From Ruoffia tabacinasalis (GTDB taxonomy: Bacteria > Bacillota > Bacilli > Lactobacillales > Aerococcaceae), in NCBI RefSeq assembly GCF_005864045.1, contig NZ_VBSP01000020.1:1-40313 (forward strand): 40,313 bases of DNA. Direction: 5' to 3'. This document shows, one piece after another, positions 219-38,359 of this stretch. Below the pieces are notes generated by a model, which ran no database searches, was not told where the DNA came from, and worked only from the letters and a program-made list of their open reading frames with translations. A program made the position numbers and the translations under genes. Position 1 is the stretch's first letter; each line of letters opens with the position of its first letter.

Positions 219-301
219 ATCAAAATTAGCGCAATGACACTACTGCATGAAAGCATTTACCTTTATACTTAAGTTAACAAATCAAGTAAGGAGTGAAAAA
301 A

Positions 302-1252
302 ATGACAGATAATATTGCAGTAGAAGTAAAACAACTTGTAAAACGCTATGGCAAATTGGTAGCCTTAGATCATTTTAATTTATCGGTATATAAAGGTGAA
401 ATCCTTGGCTTACTTGGTCCAAATGGGTGTGGTAAGACAACTTTAATTAATTCAATCCTCGGCTTACTCACTTATGATAAAGGTGACATCGATGTATTTG
501 GAGAAGAATTAAAACCTAACAGCTATAAAATTAAGCAAAGAATCGGCGTGGTGCCTCAAGAAGTTGCTTTGTTCGAAGAATTAACTGTATTTGAGAATAT
601 TGATTTCTTCTGTGGCTTATATTTAGAAGATAAAGATGAGCGCCGACGTTTAGTTAATGAAGCAATTAAGTTTGTTGAATTAGATAAATACAGCAAATTT
701 ATACCAAAGAAATTAAGTGGGGGATTAAAACGCCGTTTAAATATCGCCTGTGGGATCGCTCACCAACCCGATTTGATTTTTATGGACGAGCCAACAGTTG
801 CAGTTGATGCTCAAAGTCGGAATTTTATCTTAGAGGGAATTAAACGTTTGAACGAAAACGGTGCAACCATCGTGTATACGACGCACTATTTGGACGAAGC
901 AGAGCAAATTAGTGACCGCGTTGTAATCATAGACTCAGGGCAAAACATCGCTGATGGGACTTTAGAACAATTACAACAAAAAGTGAATCAAGGTGAGATT
1001 ATTAATATCGAATTGTTTGATATTAGTCCAGAACAGATCGAAGAAATGAGAGAATTACCAAATCTCAATACGATTGAGAAGACAGGTAAGAACAAATGGC
1101 GACTCGTCTATGACGAAGGGAATAATCATGTCGTTCAATTAGTAAAATTCATTGAAGAACATGAATTGTCTTATACTCAATTATATAGTCAGATGCCAGA
1201 TTTAAATTCAATCTTCTTAGAACTGACTGGGAAGGAGCTGCGTGACCAATGA
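302..1252 (+). CDS. ABC transporter ATP-binding protein, LnrL/CcmA-like drug exporter ATPase
   Basis: This is the ATPase of a three-gene ABC-2 exporter. It powers efflux by two membrane partners encoded directly downstream. With the start at 302 it has 316 residues: Walker A GPNGCGKT at 39-46, Q-loop PQE near 85-87, signature LSGG at 138-141, Walker B LIFMDEP at 158-164 and the switch histidine near 195. The C-terminal 100 residues form the accessory domain typical of daunorubicin/linearmycin-type ATPases. An upstream in-frame GTG at 293 is rejected because it overlaps the Shine-Dalgarno AAGGAG (288-293), which sits 8 bases before ATG 302. The stop overlaps the next gene as ATGA, so translation is coupled. 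One ATPase with two different permeases matches Bacillus LnrLMN (polyene resistance). The substrate here is unknown. Confidence 0.92.
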   Translation: MTDNIAVEVKQLVKRYGKLVALDHFNLSVYKGEILGLLGPNGCGKTTLINSILGLLTYDKGDIDVFGEELKPNSYKIKQRIGVVPQEVALFEELTVFENIDFFCGLYLEDKDERRRLVNEAIKFVELDKYSKFIPKKLSGGLKRRLNIACGIAHQPDLIFMDEPTVAVDAQSRNFILEGIKRLNENGATIVYTTHYLDEAEQISDRVVIIDSGQNIADGTLEQLQQKVNQGEIINIELFDISPEQIEEMRELPNLNTIEKTGKNKWRLVYDEGNNHVVQLVKFIEEHELSYTQLYSQMPDLNSIFLELTGKELRDQ

Positions 1253-2316
1253 GAGCAGCACTCACGCAACTAAGGTATTATTTTCTGAGATTTGTTCGAA
1301 CACCAGATATTTTATTTTATACTTTTGGGTTGCCGCTAATTCTTGCTTCTCTTTATTTCTTCGCATCATCAAGCTTAATTGAAGGTGATATTGAAGCTGT
1401 TCCGATTGGAGTGACAACCGAATCCACTCCCTTTTATAGTTACGGTGAAATATTAACTAACATAGACGTTCTCGATGTAACGACGATGAGTGAAGAAGAG
1501 GGAAGAGAACTGTTGGAAGCAGAAGAAATAGAAGTCTATGTAAAGCAAGATGGAAACTTATTAATGAATGAAAGTAATTTAAATACTTCCATCGTCAAAA
1601 GTATCATGGATCAAGTGAAACAAACCACAGCGATGGGATTAGATGCATTGAATATGGATTACACAACGGAGTTTGTCAAAATGGAATCGACACCCGGTTC
1701 CTATATCGTGATTATGTTCTTCGGTTTAATCGCTATGGTAAGTTTATACGGGGGATTTTATGGGGTGCAAATTTCGACTGAAATTCTAGCCCCCTTAAGT
1801 TCACTCGCTTCTCGGTTGAGCAGCACACCGTTAAAACGCTATCGCTATATTGGTTTAAACGCTTTAAATGCGGTTCTTGTAAACTTTGCTGCGAACATCA
1901 TTTTAATTATTTATATTCAATATGTGCTCGGAATTCAAGTCGTGAATCATTTCGGTTATAGTTTGCTACTTATATTCCTTGGAAATATCTTCGGGATTAT
2001 GTTGGGAATTGTTGTCGGACTCATTCCAAAGTTGAAGATCGATGGGAAAATCCAAATTGTTGTCGCATCAACGCTAATTTTAACCTTTATTGCAGGGGGA
2101 ATGGTACCGGGTGTGAAGCAATTTATAAACAACACGATTCCATGGTTTAACACAGTCAATCCTGTAAACATTATTACTGAGAATTTCTATCGTATTAATT
2201 TACTGAATGATACGAGGATTCTTTCACAAGGAATCTTGATTATGGCCGTATATATCATACTAATGTTTGCATTTTCAGTCTATTACTTAAGGGGGAAACG
2301 TTATGACCATCTATAA
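1249..2316 (+). CDS. ABC-2 type transporter permease (first of two, LnrM-like)
   Basis: A 355-residue membrane subunit of the exporter. One hydrophobic segment lies near residues 22-42, followed by a long extracytoplasmic region (about 45-150) and then five to six hydrophobic segments from about 152 to the C-terminus, the ABC2_membrane_3 layout. The motif GGMVPGVKQF near 280-290 resembles the conserved turn before the last helices in ABC-2 permeases. The start ATG overlaps the ATPase stop in ATGA, and GAAGGAG lies just upstream. The gene overlaps the next permease by 14 bases, so the three products are probably made in fixed ratio. The substrate cannot be read from the sequence. Assignment to the ABC-2 family is firm; the Lnr-like label rests on gene order. 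Confidence 0.88.
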   Translation: MRAALTQLRYYFLRFVRTPDILFYTFGLPLILASLYFFASSSLIEGDIEAVPIGVTTESTPFYSYGEILTNIDVLDVTTMSEEEGRELLEAEEIEVYVKQDGNLLMNESNLNTSIVKSIMDQVKQTTAMGLDALNMDYTTEFVKMESTPGSYIVIMFFGLIAMVSLYGGFYGVQISTEILAPLSSLASRLSSTPLKRYRYIGLNALNAVLVNFAANIILIIYIQYVLGIQVVNHFGYSLLLIFLGNIFGIMLGIVVGLIPKLKIDGKIQIVVASTLILTFIAGGMVPGVKQFINNTIPWFNTVNPVNIITENFYRINLLNDTRILSQGILIMAVYIILMFAFSVYYLRGKRYDHL

Positions 2317-3445
2317 TATGATCATCCGCATCTTCTCAAAGTATTGGAAAGAACTGCTAATTTACTTTCTAATTTTCCTTGGTTTTGTATTTGTAGCCAT
2401 AGGGCAACCAGAAGGCGATGAAAATCAAACATTCTCAAGTGTGACCTTAGATATTGCAGTAGTGAATCAAAGTGACGATCCACTGGGTGAACATTTAGTG
2501 GATTACTTGAGTGAATCGCATGACGTGGAAACGCTATCCGATGTCACTATAGTGGATGTTGAAAATGAAGTTTTCTCTGGAACATATCAGGGGATGTTAT
2601 ATATTCCTGAGAATTTTGAAGAATTGGTTTTAAATGGGCAAGCAGACCAGGTTGAGTTACTACTGAATGAACGTGATATGAGTAGTGCACAGCTGAATAC
2701 GGAGGTCGACAAATACTTACGATTGGCCAATGCTCGGGTCGCATCTGGAGTCAGCGATATTTCAGAGTTAACAGATCAACTCGATTCTACGCTGAATGAA
2801 ACAGCCGAAGTAGAATTGATTGGTGGCTTAGATCATCAAAACGTTCTCTTGGCTTATACAACCGGAATTGCATTAGTGGGTTACTTTGTCCTTCAAATTA
2901 TTCTTGGAACTGTTGGTATGGCTATGTCAGAAATTAAATCTAAAAAAATTCAAGACCGCATTAATTTGAGTGGAATTTCAAATCTAAGATATAATACCCA
3001 AGTTGTCTTAGGACAAGTAACCTATGGTGGGTTAATTCTACTCATTACACTCTTAGTACTGTGGGTCTATATCCCGAGTTCTATTCCGATTGATTACGTT
3101 CGAATCATTATTTCACTTGCCTTGTTCGTCTTAAACGCATTATCGATGGCATTTTTAATGACAGCACTCACGAACAATCGCAATATCATTAATGCACTCA
3201 CCACCGTCGTGAGTTTGGGTCTCGCGTTCTTGTCAGGATTATTCATCCCGTATGAGGTTATGGGTCCAACCATTCAACGTATTGCACATTTCTCACCTTT
3301 GTTCTACTTTAGACAAAGTGTGATGAAAGACATCAATTCGTACACAGATTTATTAACCGAGTGGGGCTTTCTTTTAGCCTTCGCCGTCGTCTTCACCTTA
3401 TTAGGTGTCGCAATTTCACAACAAAAGCGTGCAGGTAAGGGATAA
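2303..3445 (+). CDS. ABC-2 type transporter permease (second of two, LnrN-like)
   Basis: A 380-residue partner permease. An N-terminal membrane segment (about 14-35) precedes an extracytoplasmic domain of about 140 residues. Membrane helices follow from about 185 to the end, including the ABC-2 hallmark GLFIPYEVMGPTIQ before the last pair of helices. It is related to, but clearly diverged from, the preceding permease, which suggests a heterodimeric channel. The ATG at 2303 lies inside the end of the previous gene, with a GGGGG Shine-Dalgarno at 2291-2295. A terminator follows at 3451, closing a three-gene operon with no sensor kinase or response regulator attached, unlike lnrJKLMN in Bacillus. 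Confidence 0.88.
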   Translation: MTIYNMIIRIFSKYWKELLIYFLIFLGFVFVAIGQPEGDENQTFSSVTLDIAVVNQSDDPLGEHLVDYLSESHDVETLSDVTIVDVENEVFSGTYQGMLYIPENFEELVLNGQADQVELLLNERDMSSAQLNTEVDKYLRLANARVASGVSDISELTDQLDSTLNETAEVELIGGLDHQNVLLAYTTGIALVGYFVLQIILGTVGMAMSEIKSKKIQDRINLSGISNLRYNTQVVLGQVTYGGLILLITLLVLWVYIPSSIPIDYVRIIISLALFVLNALSMAFLMTALTNNRNIINALTTVVSLGLAFLSGLFIPYEVMGPTIQRIAHFSPLFYFRQSVMKDINSYTDLLTEWGFLLAFAVVFTLLGVAISQQKRAGKG

Positions 3446-10238: not shown

Positions 10239-10526
10239 TTATTTTTTCCCATTATTGGCTTTAAATAACCAATAAAAGACAAATACCATAAAAAAGACGA
10301 CCAAGAGTGCTGCTAACATCCAAATTAACATCAAGTCAATCAGATTATTTACGACTAAAATAAAGCCGAGAATCCCCACTAAAGATAGCAATACACTAAA
10401 AATAATAATAACTTTATTAGAATAGTCGCCGAATACCTCAAGTAATGTACGTCTATAAATTAATAAATATGCACCCAAAATCATAAACATGGCAGGAAAT
10501 GCATAAATTAAAATATTAAATATCAT
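10239..10526 (-). CDS. Small three-helix membrane protein, function unknown
   Basis: I do not recognise this 95-residue protein. It is almost entirely hydrophobic, with membrane segments at about 3-23, 38-60 and 66-88, a short RRTLLEVFGDYSNK loop between the first two, and a positively charged tail (KANNGKK). It starts 18 bases after the stop of an orphan NarL-type response regulator on the same strand. AAGGAAGG precedes ATG 10526, so the two are probably cotranscribed. It could be a membrane partner or target of that regulator, but nothing in the sequence proves this. Confidence 0.75.
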   Translation of the reverse strand: MIFNILIYAFPAMFMILGAYLLIYRRTLLEVFGDYSNKVIIIFSVLLSLVGILGFILVVNNLIDLMLIWMLAALLVVFFMVFVFYWLFKANNGKK

Positions 10527-10544
10527 TTGTAAACCTTCCTTTGA

Positions 10545-11174
10545 CTAATTTTCTTTGAATTCATTGCCTTTGTAATAACTGATCGCAAGCTGGGTCCGAT
10601 CACGCAACTCCAACTTAAGTAACAGTTGAGATATATAGTTTCGAATTGTTCCTTCGCTCAAGTAAAACTTTTCGGCAATTTCTTTATTATTCAAGCCTTC
10701 TGCGACAGCTTGATAAATATCTAATTCACGAGGTGTGAGTTCACTCAATATTTCTTGATTTGATTGAGAGACTGATTGAGCAACGTTATTCACGATAGTA
10801 TTATCGAGAACGGTCTGATTATTAAGAACAGCTTCAATGGCTGGCAAGATACTTTTAATATTTTGCTTTAAGATATAGCCTGTACACCCTAATTGAAGGG
10901 CAGCTTGTATGAAATCTGAGTCTTCAAAAGTAGTAACGAGTAGAATTTTTGCTTGCGGAAATTCACTCAAAATAGTCGAAGCAGCATCGATTCCGGATTT
11001 ATCTTGCATTCGAATATCTAACAATGTGATGTCTGGCTTGTAAATTGAGTAATTAGCAATGGCTTCTTCAGCAGAATAGCCGGTTATTATTACTTCGTAG
11101 CCACCATTCTCAATAATTAAACTCAAAGATTCTACTACTATTGGATCATCATCAATAATCATTACAGTTGTCAA
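10545..11174 (-). CDS. Orphan NarL/FixJ-type response regulator
   Basis: A 209-residue two-component response regulator. The receiver domain has acidic pocket residues in IIDDDP (D8-D10), the phosphoacceptor D53 in ITLLDIRM, switch residues T81/T82 in LVTTFED and K103 in YILK. A LuxR-type helix-turn-helix follows (about 145-205: LTPRELDIYQAVAEGLNNKEIAEKF, then a recognition helix with RNYISQLLLKL). I prefer a TTG start at 11174, six bases after AAAAGGGGTG, because it places the first receiver strand right at the N-terminus. ATG 11195, seven codons upstream, lacks a ribosome binding site. There is no kinase gene alongside. The kinase could be elsewhere, or the LiaS-like kinase at 31067 could cross-talk (inference). 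Confidence 0.88.
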   Translation of the reverse strand: MTTVMIIDDDPIVVESLSLIIENGGYEVIITGYSAEEAIANYSIYKPDITLLDIRMQDKSGIDAASTILSEFPQAKILLVTTFEDSDFIQAALQLGCTGYILKQNIKSILPAIEAVLNNQTVLDNTIVNNVAQSVSQSNQEILSELTPRELDIYQAVAEGLNNKEIAEKFYLSEGTIRNYISQLLLKLELRDRTQLAISYYKGNEFKEN

Positions 11175-11204
11175 CGCGTTCACCCCTTTTATCATGTTTC
11201 TTTA

Positions 11205-11233
11205 ATTGTAGTTGAATTTACAATGATTGTCAC
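11205..11233 (-). promoter_or_regulatory. Promoter of the response regulator gene with overlapping inverted repeat
   Basis: Read on the minus strand: -35 GTGACA (11228-11233), a 17-base spacer and -10 TACAAT (11205-11210). A perfect inverted repeat ATTGTA/TACAAT (11205-11210 and 11219-11224, 8-base gap) overlaps the -10 and the spacer. It could be an autoregulatory operator. Confidence 0.5.
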
Positions 11234-11241
11234 GGAAGATT

Positions 11242-11280
11242 AAAAAAAGTACCAGAGATGAAGTGAATCATCTCTGGTAC
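11242..11280 (-). terminator. Terminator of the 31-residue membrane peptide gene
   Basis: A perfect 13-bp stem (11249-11261 with 11268-11280) with a six-base loop. On the minus strand it is followed by seven T. There is no T-run on the other side, so it is oriented for the minus strand. Confidence 0.92.
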
Positions 11281-11322
11281 TCGACTAAAATTAAGCAAAA
11301 TTAGAATAATTGCTTATATAAA

Positions 11323-11418
11323 TTAGCTAGCTTTTTCCGCTTGATCGTTAGATGTTTTGATAGCTAAAACGATTAAAATGACATACCAAATAATTTTTAA
11401 CCAAGGCCAATTACGCAT
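11323..11418 (-). CDS. Small single-span membrane peptide (31 residues), unknown function
   Basis: The ORF encodes 31 residues. It begins MRNWPWLKIIWYVILIVLAI, a tryptophan-rich N-terminus running into one hydrophobic helix of about 17 residues, and ends in a polar tail (KTSNDQAEKAS). The start ATG 11418 is placed 6 bases after GGAGGA (11425-11430). A TATAAT -10 box lies at 11447-11452 read on the minus strand, and a strong terminator lies 43 bases after the stop. A complete transcription unit around so short a frame argues that it is real. It could be a regulatory or stress micropeptide, or a type I toxin-like peptide. I do not recognise a family. The response regulator gene lies just downstream on the same strand but beyond the terminator. 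Confidence 0.7.
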   Translation of the reverse strand: MRNWPWLKIIWYVILIVLAIKTSNDQAEKAS

Positions 11419-11579
11419 GTTCATTCCTCCTATCTTTATATGTCTTATTATACCTAATTTCATCTTAAATTACATTTAATTTGACTGTTATAAGTCATTA
11501 GGTTTATAAGAAGAACCCATGTTTGGTGACGTTACTAATAAAATGTATAATGAAATTGAATTAATGAAGGAGGAGTAAT

Positions 11580-12043: not shown

Positions 12044-12244
12044 TAAAAGGCATCCGGTGGTGCCGTTTCCGTATATATATGTTATTGAACCTGCAAGTAA
12101 TTACAGGTGGGCTCCACACTTGCTTTTTCTGACTTCCAAGTGTAAAAGGCTTGTCATAGAAACAAGATCATAGGATCCCGAGATAAAAAGAAATGTTCGG
12201 TCCACACAATATATATACAACGTACACCTCAGAGAACCTTTGTT
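12026..12244 (-). ncRNA. ssrS: Probable 6S RNA
   Basis: A noncoding transcript of about 220 nt. Read on the minus strand, an outer stem pairs GGTG with CACC and GTATATATAT with ATATATATAC. A large central bubble follows, its 3' strand carrying a short hairpin (ACCTG...CAGGT). An apical stem opens with GGGATCC/GGAGCCC and contains ACACTTG/CAAGTGT. This closing stem-bubble-apical stem layout mimics an open promoter and is the hallmark of 6S RNA, which binds the housekeeping RNA polymerase holoenzyme in stationary phase. In Firmicutes 6S RNA genes are commonly found near rarA, as here. No long ORF is present. The exact 5' end is inferred from the promoter. SRP RNA, tmRNA and RNase P RNA motifs are absent. 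Confidence 0.75.
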
Positions 12245-36792: not shown

Positions 36793-36811
36793 ATATTTAA
36801 GTTAAAGAGGT

Positions 36812-37037
36812 ATTGTGCGAGGCGCGGTTGACAAAAGTACACACACGTGGAAAGGGGATATCGCCGAAACGACTTTCGTTGGGGACTGACTTTAAGAGGT
36901 TGGTCACTGTTATTATCAAAGAGCCAAAGTGATAATAAGGTGCAATCAATTACCGGGCAAAAGGATACGTCAACTCAAATCAAGATGGATTGATTAGTGA
37001 AAGCGACCACGAACCTTTTGTTCGTAGTCGCTTTTTG
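36812..37037 (+). promoter_or_regulatory. L-box lysine riboswitch with terminator, controlling lysA-dapA-dapB
   Basis: Aptamer hallmarks appear in order: GCGAGGCGCG, AAAGTA, GTGGAAAGGGG, CGCCGAAACG and GGGGACTGAC, then the GTTGGTCAC arm and the hairpin TTATTATCA/TGATAATAA. The expression platform ends in a terminator pairing AGCGAC-CA-CGAAC (37002-37014) with GTTCG-TA-GTCGCT (37020-37031), followed by TTTTTG. Lysine binding should favour the terminator and reduce lysine/diaminopimelate synthesis. The aptamer's exact 3' boundary is approximate. Confidence 0.92.
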
Positions 37038-37063: not shown

Positions 37064-38359
37064 ATGCATTTAGAACCGTATCAAACGAAGGTGAATAACG
37101 AACTGGTTCATTCACATCATAAATATTCAGATTTAGCTCAACAGTATGGAACACCGCTTTATATTTTCGATGAAGAGAGTTTTAGAGATCGCGTGTATCG
37201 TTTCAAAGAAGCATTAGAGAATCCTTACTTTGAGACAGAATTATTATTTGCATCGAAGTCTGTTTTGACACTAGCGATTGCAAAATTGATTTCAGAGTAT
37301 GGTATTGGACAAGATGTTGTTAGTGCAGGGGAGATCTATACTGGAAAGAAAGGTGGCGTTCAGCCATCGAAGATGTACTTTCACGGGAATAACAAATTAG
37401 AAGAGGAATTAGCTTTTGCGGTCGATCAAGAAGTTGGAACGATTGTCATCGATAATCGAATGGAAGCTGATAGACTAAATAATATTTTAGAACAAAAAGG
37501 GAAAAAGCAACGCGCGTTATTACGCTTAAATCCTGGAGTTGAAGCACATACACACGAATACATTAAAACTGCTAACTTAGATTCAAAATTTGGTGAGAGT
37601 GTCTTCGATGACAATATTGAAGACATTATAGAAACTATCTATAACTATGATAATATTGAATTAGCAGGTTTACATTGTCACATCGGTAGTCAAATATTTG
37701 ATTCAGAATCTTTTATTAAAGCAGCGGATGAAATGTTATTATTTGCTCAACGGATTCAAACGAATTTAAATATTCCAATTAGAGAAATTAATTTCGGCGG
37801 AGGCTTTGGCGTCTACTATACCCAAGAGGATAAACCGTTTGATATTGCTGAATTCTTACCGGATTTTATCGAGCATGTTCATGAAAAGTCTACTGAATAC
37901 GGGATTCAATTAGAGAAGGTGACAATTGAACCTGGAAGATCTTTAGTTAACAATTCTGGAAGTACTTTGTATACGATTGGTGATATTAAGCAGACCGTAG
38001 GTGGTAAGAAGTACGCCTTTATCGATGGCGGGATGACTGATAATATCCGTCCTGCTTTATATCAGGCTGAATACGAAGCAGCCTTGCCGAATAAAATTAA
38101 CGAACCGATTAAAGAAACGTACACCATTGCTGGTAAGGCCTGTGAGAGTGGGGATGTCGTGATTAATAAGATTGATCTTCCTCAAGTTGAAACAGGTGAT
38201 TTATTACTAGTAAATGGGACAGGGTCGTATAATTATTCTATGGCAAGCAATTATAATCACATTCCCATTCCTGCCATGGTGCATATTGATGGTGAGAAAA
38301 GTTACTTAACAGTCAAACGTCAGTCATTTGAAGATATCATAGCAAATAATATTATATAG
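37064..38359 (+). CDS. lysA: Diaminopimelate decarboxylase
   Basis: A PLP enzyme that makes L-lysine from meso-diaminopimelate, the last step of the pathway. The 431-residue fold-type III protein has the PLP lysine K65 in LFASKSVLTLA, HCHIGSQIFD near 203-212, the glycine-rich phosphate loop NFGGGFGVYY near 246-255, EPGRSLV and the partner-subunit GKACESGDVV carrying the active-site cysteine. AAGGAGTGG precedes ATG 37064. It is first in the operon, so the L-box senses the product of the first encoded enzyme. The operon is compact, with dapA 13 bases downstream. Confidence 0.97.
   Translation: MHLEPYQTKVNNELVHSHHKYSDLAQQYGTPLYIFDEESFRDRVYRFKEALENPYFETELLFASKSVLTLAIAKLISEYGIGQDVVSAGEIYTGKKGGVQPSKMYFHGNNKLEEELAFAVDQEVGTIVIDNRMEADRLNNILEQKGKKQRALLRLNPGVEAHTHEYIKTANLDSKFGESVFDDNIEDIIETIYNYDNIELAGLHCHIGSQIFDSESFIKAADEMLLFAQRIQTNLNIPIREINFGGGFGVYYTQEDKPFDIAEFLPDFIEHVHEKSTEYGIQLEKVTIEPGRSLVNNSGSTLYTIGDIKQTVGGKKYAFIDGGMTDNIRPALYQAEYEAALPNKINEPIKETYTIAGKACESGDVVINKIDLPQVETGDLLLVNGTGSYNYSMASNYNHIPIPAMVHIDGEKSYLTVKRQSFEDIIANNII

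Follow-up and report, generated by a model that had tools for sequence, protein, structure and literature searches.

Many bacterial membrane microproteins exist, and those of the KdpF, CydX, AcrZ and MgtS type are single-pass proteins that act as accessory subunits. A peptide that can be likened to them by description, with no sequence relation claimed, is encoded in the Aerococcaceae bacterium Ruoffia tabacinasalis (assembly GCF_005864045.1) by a 31-codon frame on the minus strand, positions 11323-11418, of contig NZ_VBSP01000020.1; these 40,313 nucleotides, referred to here as the window, are contig 20 in its full length, in an assembly of 2.5 Mb. The likeness lies in a length of some 30-50 residues, a single helix, the lack of catalytic residues and a strong Shine–Dalgarno (SD) sequence. 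However, KdpF, CydX, AcrZ and MgtS are tied to their partners by gene order or by experiment, whereas the gene order around the Ruoffia peptide points to none. Two other kinds of small protein come close. The Fst/Ldr type I toxins are a 33-residue class with, as in the peptide, one membrane helix; passages of PMC8309996 give APxxxGxxx as their conserved motif and describe the masking of the start as a trait of the fst mRNA. A start-masking hairpin is predicted for the peptide too, in Ruoffia only; unlike the toxins, the peptide has neither that motif nor direct repeats. Prli42 (NCBIfam NF033880), described in passages of PMC9840623 as the membrane tether of an RsbR-type stressosome protein, resembles the peptide in its 31-position profile, its one helix and its occurrence in Bacillota, but the peptide scores 13.0 bits against a cut-off of 27.5 and in this differs from the members of that family.

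A first-pass annotation of the window had proposed that a small membrane peptide has a complete transcription unit of its own at this place, and the present analysis supports that proposal at the level of sequence. The unit is very probably a gene, and it is very likely that the gene is translated into a microprotein. It probably belongs to one new small-protein family of Ruoffia and a second Aerococcaceae genus, probably Aerococcus; its kind is ordinary, and a peptide of this sort is no surprise. The fuller explanation, to which we give moderate confidence, is that 11323-11418 is a real monocistronic gene for a 31-residue single-pass membrane protein that serves as an accessory or regulatory subunit, of a family shared with the second genus.

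Between 11475 and 11242 on the minus strand, the elements of the unit follow each other in the order ATGTAA, 17 bases, TATAAT, GGAGGA, 6 bases, ATG, 30 codons, TAA, hairpin and T run. The -35-like hexamer ATGTAA (11470-11475) matches the consensus at 3 of 6 positions, and both it and its 17-base spacing are the same in another Ruoffia genome, G001. The -10 box TATAAT (11447-11452) and the ribosome-binding site GGAGGA (11425-11430) are identical in all three Ruoffia genomes compared, namely this one, G001 and G002. The frame, with its ATG at 11418 and its stop included in the coordinates above, encodes a predicted single-helix membrane microprotein (MRNWPWLKIIWYVILIVLAIKTSNDQAEKAS). A second in-frame ATG (ATGAACATG), also conserved in the three genomes, abuts the SD and is an unlikely start, being too close to it. 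An intrinsic terminator hairpin of 15 pairs (11247-11282), with its T run at 11242-11248, closes the unit. Thus, the box, the ribosome-binding site, the frame with its hydrophobic helix and the terminator that the first-pass annotation had listed are all present on the minus strand, and the coordinates that it gave are right. Further downstream, the response regulator gene has a promoter-like site of its own (GTGACA-17-TACAAT, 11205-11233, minus strand), the same in G001; therefore, the peptide unit is regarded as monocistronic. The notion that the peptide might be a leader or attenuator of the regulator was discarded on account of this same site, situated after the terminator.

The genus Ruoffia provided the first line of evidence that this unit is real. 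The peptide is present in one copy in each of the three genomes, the other two copies being 94% and 74% identical to that of the window, and the frame keeps its length with no insertion or deletion. In the alignment, the -10 box, the spacing, the SD, both ATGs and the frame are the same throughout, and the flanks are identical at 109 of 158 (69%) and 83 of 126 (66%) aligned bases, with gaps. Synteny is also maintained in the three genomes, with rarA, the 6S region (6S being identified by Rfam in the window only), a glyoxalase-like gene, the peptide, the response regulator, a 95-residue membrane protein and pyrR in constant order. When neutral change at the divergence of the flanks was simulated (30%), only 0.04% of the runs retained the frame together with at least 23 of 31 residues (P about 0.0004 or less), which demonstrates constraint, although not that the protein is its target. 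With respect to the terminator, all 45 paired cells are kept in the three species; two pairs differ on both sides in G001, and three differ on one side. These pairing values were matched by 54 of 500 shuffles, and a comparison of three species makes the count no more than suggestive.

Simple counts of elements say less. In the scanned 2-kb region, promoter-like sites were at chance level (9 found, 9.3 expected), the list lacking the TATAAT promoter of the unit because its -35 box is weak, and terminator-like sites numbered 4 against 1.0 expected. A comparable SD-preceded hydrophobic ATG frame appeared in 5 of 4000 dinucleotide shuffles of the 384-base gap, under thresholds (at least 25 codons, a 5-mer SD and a hydrophobic stretch) that were chosen after the gene had been seen. 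The predicted fold energy of the unit lies 4.2 standard deviations below shuffles, an excess that, judging from the drawn structure, would come mainly from the terminator. Conservation is stronger evidence than element counts or shuffles for the reality of the unit.

A second line of evidence came from the search for relatives. A profile made from the three Ruoffia peptides and run on 76 genomes of the family (E up to 0.05) found four places outside Ruoffia, all of them in one genus and all short frames with an SD-like site (weak in G104). The E-values per genome were 0.001-0.005, a range in which unrelated hydrophobic frames also score in large searches. When these four matches were added to the profile, a member was found in 11 of the 15 genomes of the second genus, as exemplified by MATSKAQKKRNRKILWYVILIIFTIIQSIYLSNKED and, in partial form, by MSSEQKKRNLKIMWYITLIAGIAIKSMMDKEDEKE. 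Each of the eleven relatives has a -10 box 35-50 bases 5' of its start (TATAAT in eight, TATACT in three) and, no more than 162 bases past its stop, a hairpin followed by a T run, both features being counted without a shuffle control. The core K-I-[ILM]-W-Y-x-x-L-I is present in the three Ruoffia peptides and is complete in nine of the eleven relatives, G055 having G in place of W and G100 having L in place of the last I. The peptide had been described as rich in tryptophan, and this fits Ruoffia (W4, W6 and W11), while the second genus matches W11 only. Importantly, at moderate distance the relatives differ mostly by silent changes: 12 synonymous and 2 non-synonymous between G108 and G044, 10 and 1 between G101 and G102, and 11 and 2 in another pair, of 22 codons in each case. 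No other result speaks as strongly for translation as this silent excess; for Ruoffia, it counts only provided that the two families are a single one. The first-pass annotation had named the loss of the frame with retention of the RNA as a contrary outcome; instead, the frame is kept in all three Ruoffia genomes compared and is accompanied by mostly silent change in the moderately distant relatives.

The gene mvaS, which encodes HMG-CoA synthase, adjoins the peptide in four of the six second-genus regions viewed (L079-L083 and L085), but no fixed functional link emerged. As a fixed neighbour, mvaS was rejected, since no such frame was found at the two Ruoffia mvaS loci viewed or beside mvaS in the four second-genus genomes that gave no match. 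Proximity to pyrR in both genera was likewise set aside and taken as chance, given that order and direction differ.

The unit, its frame and their conservation are read from the sequence, and from there we infer how the product might behave. AlphaFold2, given the single sequence, returned one helix at residues 4-30 (pLDDT 86.7), and the hydrophobic core is strongest at residues 6-20. Most relatives combine a basic N-terminus with an acidic tail. According to the positive-inside rule, the basic end of a membrane helix stays in the cytoplasm, and an N-in topology is therefore proposed. Transcription of the unit would begin at its own promoter and end at its own terminator, with no co-transcription with the regulator; the N-terminus, carrying R2, K8 and two tryptophans, would probably be cytoplasmic; a helix from about W4 to I20 would span the membrane, leaving a short polar tail outside; and the K-I-x-W-Y core would sit at the cytoplasm-facing end of the helix, level with the inner face of the membrane. 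The protein would then most likely be an accessory or regulatory subunit of a larger membrane protein, which it would contact helix to helix and in stoichiometric amount. Such a role is favoured over that of a toxin or a leader peptide because the gene is single-copy, is separately promoted and has a good SD. The conserved inner-face K-I-x-W-Y offers a handle for finding the partner, and the short standalone unit makes a clean deletion or tagging feasible.

Several results weigh against this explanation. Concerning the relationship between the two genera, a profile built from the second genus alone gave its best score in each Ruoffia region to the peptide, with 19.3 bits in the window, 20.5 in G002 and 14.6 in G001, but unrelated frames reached 23.7 bits among 125 background loci, many of which had been picked by earlier searches for their high scores. 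In the opposite direction, the Ruoffia-only profile scored 12.8-21.1 bits in ten regions holding relatives, of which three exceed the best background frame (18.2 bits), and it missed the relative of G055. The case for homology between the genera depends on a short hydrophobic core, and we consider common descent of the two sets of peptides likely. Moreover, the most distant relatives, G108 and G104, differ by 6 silent and 11 non-synonymous changes, and within Ruoffia 8 of the 10 changed codons (the stop codon left out) are non-synonymous, so that the comparison of synonymous and non-synonymous change suggested at first pass favours a protein in the second genus at moderate distance and says less in Ruoffia by itself. 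The Ruoffia data on their own are insufficient as proof of selection on the protein. The -35 box is weak, and gene order indicates no partner. Finally, the predicted RNA gives the start codon an unpaired probability of 0.00 in all three Ruoffia sequences, and this masked start suggests, as far as the folding model goes, controlled translation in Ruoffia instead of steady production; a controlled or toxic peptide is, accordingly, possible.

The structure responsible is a predicted hairpin (11374-11427, minus strand) in which codons 11-15 form the arm that pairs with the start codon and with the latter half of the SD. The ribosome-binding site had been called ideal, and its sequence and spacing are indeed good, but part of it would be closed in this fold. 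The hairpin is not remarkable in its stability, lying only 0.7-1.2 standard deviations below shuffles, and a start closed to a similar degree (0.04 or less) is predicted for 6 of the 29 control genes taken from the window. It is absent from the second genus, where the unpaired probability of the start is 0.30-0.77 in all eleven relatives.

This hairpin is central to the first alternative, which we consider unlikely, namely that the unit encodes a small hydrophobic peptide acting as a type I toxin (Fst/Ldr, Hok-like), whose translation is restrained by the structure of its own RNA and by an antisense RNA. Size, single helix and own terminator fit, and half of the SD and the start codon are predicted to be paired in a hairpin that is near-invariant in Ruoffia, start masking being a trait of the fst mRNA. 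In addition, a promoter-like site on the opposite strand (11168-11195, TTGTCA-16-TATCAT, 10 of 12 positions) is aimed at the unit, and it is kept in G001 as TTGTCA-16-AATCAT, although it falls within the coding start of the regulator. However, promoter-like sites occur only at chance number, the two opposite-strand sites near the unit (10 and 9 of 12) included, no direct repeats were found, and the hairpin is neither unusually stable (z of -0.7 to -1.2) nor present in the second genus. The motif APxxxGxxx is absent as well: the only proline of the peptide, P5, precedes the helix core, and glycine is lacking altogether. There is one copy per Ruoffia genome, and searches found no match to the window peptide in plasmids and none to one second-genus relative in phages.

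Only slightly less probable, and still unlikely, is that the start region acts as an RNA, with the frame being secondary or conditional. In its developed form, to which we assign the same low probability, the Ruoffia unit would be a dual-function, self-masked RNA, in which the stretch that runs from the SD through codon 16 would stay almost unchanged because it folds into the start-masking hairpin, while it also encodes the membrane microprotein; the hairpin would be opened by another RNA or by a condition, and the second genus would make the relative without such control. This idea derives from a block of near-identity (11372-11437, minus strand) that starts ahead of the SD, ends at codon 16 and differs from G001 by no more than one mismatch per 64 bases. 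Windows of 64 bases as conserved as this numbered 68 of 14016 and fell in six places, among them this block and the 6S RNA. Between this genome and G001, codons 1-16 show one synonymous and one non-synonymous change, and codons 17-31 one and seven. Furthermore, silent changes at unchanged residues amount to 2 of 19 in the peptide versus 239 of 501 in four neighbour genes, in a count where the slice of the regulator began one codon ahead of its start (one-sided Fisher P 0.0009, for a comparison chosen after inspection); therefore, part of the conservation in Ruoffia concerns the nucleotides as such. The start-masking hairpin falls in this same block and may account for its invariance. On the other hand, silent sites change freely in the second genus, which has no hairpin; no Rfam family reached its gathering score over the unit; and the arms are nearly invariant in the three species, leaving no covariation to score.

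A still less probable proposal makes the peptide part of the neighbouring two-component system, either by modulating or replacing the input of the regulator or by acting with the 95-residue membrane protein. The response regulator gene (10545-11174, minus strand) lies directly downstream of the peptide on the same strand, its true start probably being the TTG at 11174 (ATG in G001), preceded by AAAGGGG, and not the ATG at 11195. In the genome G009, where the kinase/regulator pair is intact, the regulator and the 95-residue gene (10239-11174 in the window for the two), a histidine kinase gene (HisKA_3) and an ABC exporter (293-3445 in the window) form one locus, with the kinase gene preceding the regulator and the 95-residue gene and divergent from the exporter. 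The kinase and regulator of G009 lie between the rarA side and the 95-residue gene, and in Ruoffia the peptide stands where G009 has its kinase gene. This position and the gene order, constant in the three Ruoffia genomes, are what speak for the proposal. Against it, each of the two genes carries a signal of its own, a promoter-like site in the case of the regulator and a terminator in that of the peptide. Besides, 11 of 15 second-genus genomes have the peptide and none has the 95-residue protein (E up to 1e-4) or the regulator (E up to 1e-45), and no similar frame was found beside the 95-residue gene at the seven loci of other genera viewed, where rarA, the 95-residue gene and pyrR follow each other with neither peptide nor regulator between them, or upstream of the regulator at the six loci viewed. 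On this sequence evidence, the peptide does not travel with its neighbour genes. The suggestion of a membrane-stress micropeptide, which had been built on those neighbours, loses its footing, since the peptide occurs without them.

The same comparison changes how the regulator itself is to be regarded. In G001 and G002, the kinase frame is intact and adjoins the exporter, its distance from the regulator being 8.3 and 9.6 kb. In this genome, it is interrupted near its start (minus strand, about 161) at the contig end, again beside the exporter; the alignment of the window with G002 ends just inside the gene, and Enterococcus faecium plasmid DNA, located amid recombinase genes in the one record viewed, matches bases 17-132 with 97% identity. 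No full kinase of the HisKA_3 type was found in this genome, the best match being 28% identical. As the relatives keep the kinase near the exporter, the regulator is considered a separated partner, orphaned secondarily: the peptide does lie next to a regulator that stands alone, as noted at first pass, but this regulator descends from a kinase/regulator pair and is not an orphan by origin.

A Prli42-type stressosome anchor is very unlikely. Length class and membrane character are alike, and Prli42 is the best sub-threshold NCBIfam match of the window peptide (13.0 bits, E 0.064), but the curated cut-off of 27.5 bits is not reached, the G002 copy scores 12.8 bits, the match is not listed for the G001 copy or for three second-genus relatives scanned, and the Prli42 profile gave nothing above its cut-off in this genome. 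Equally remote is a chance frame in a non-functional gap, for which one may cite the frequency of short frames and the chance number of promoter-like sites, and which the retention of frame, SD and terminator across three species already disfavours.

Searches were also made beyond the family and in reference libraries. At the level of the order (395 genomes, and also 246) and of the class (398 genomes), no match was accepted, only part of the many weaker matches having been inspected. A K-K-I-L-W-Y match in one genus of another family proved to lie in another frame of accD, with no start codon, and the other matches outside the family were in frames of at least 153 residues, except for a 27-codon frame in G154; none of them was accepted. 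The first-pass annotation had not recognised the peptide, and neither Pfam nor NCBIfam has a model above cut-off for it or for the members scanned, so that what is added is a probable small-protein family in two Aerococcaceae genera. The best sub-threshold match of one second-genus relative was AgrB, with 15.5 bits against a cut-off of 23. PHROGs gave nothing for the window peptide and a best E of 0.15 for one relative, and the 12-row alignment had no counterpart among the PDB sequences. In the papers listed for Ruoffia, Facklamia tabacinasalis, Aerococcus, Prli42 and small proteins, the titles and opening lines of abstracts do not treat the peptide.

Two RNA elements of the window deserve mention. 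A 6S RNA gene (12047-12238, minus strand; Rfam RF00013, 62.4 bits) lies between rarA and the glyoxalase-like gene and is strongly conserved in G001. A lysine riboswitch (36809-36953; RF00168, 58.2 bits) lies upstream of a gene at 37064 that reads by eye as a diaminopimelate decarboxylase.
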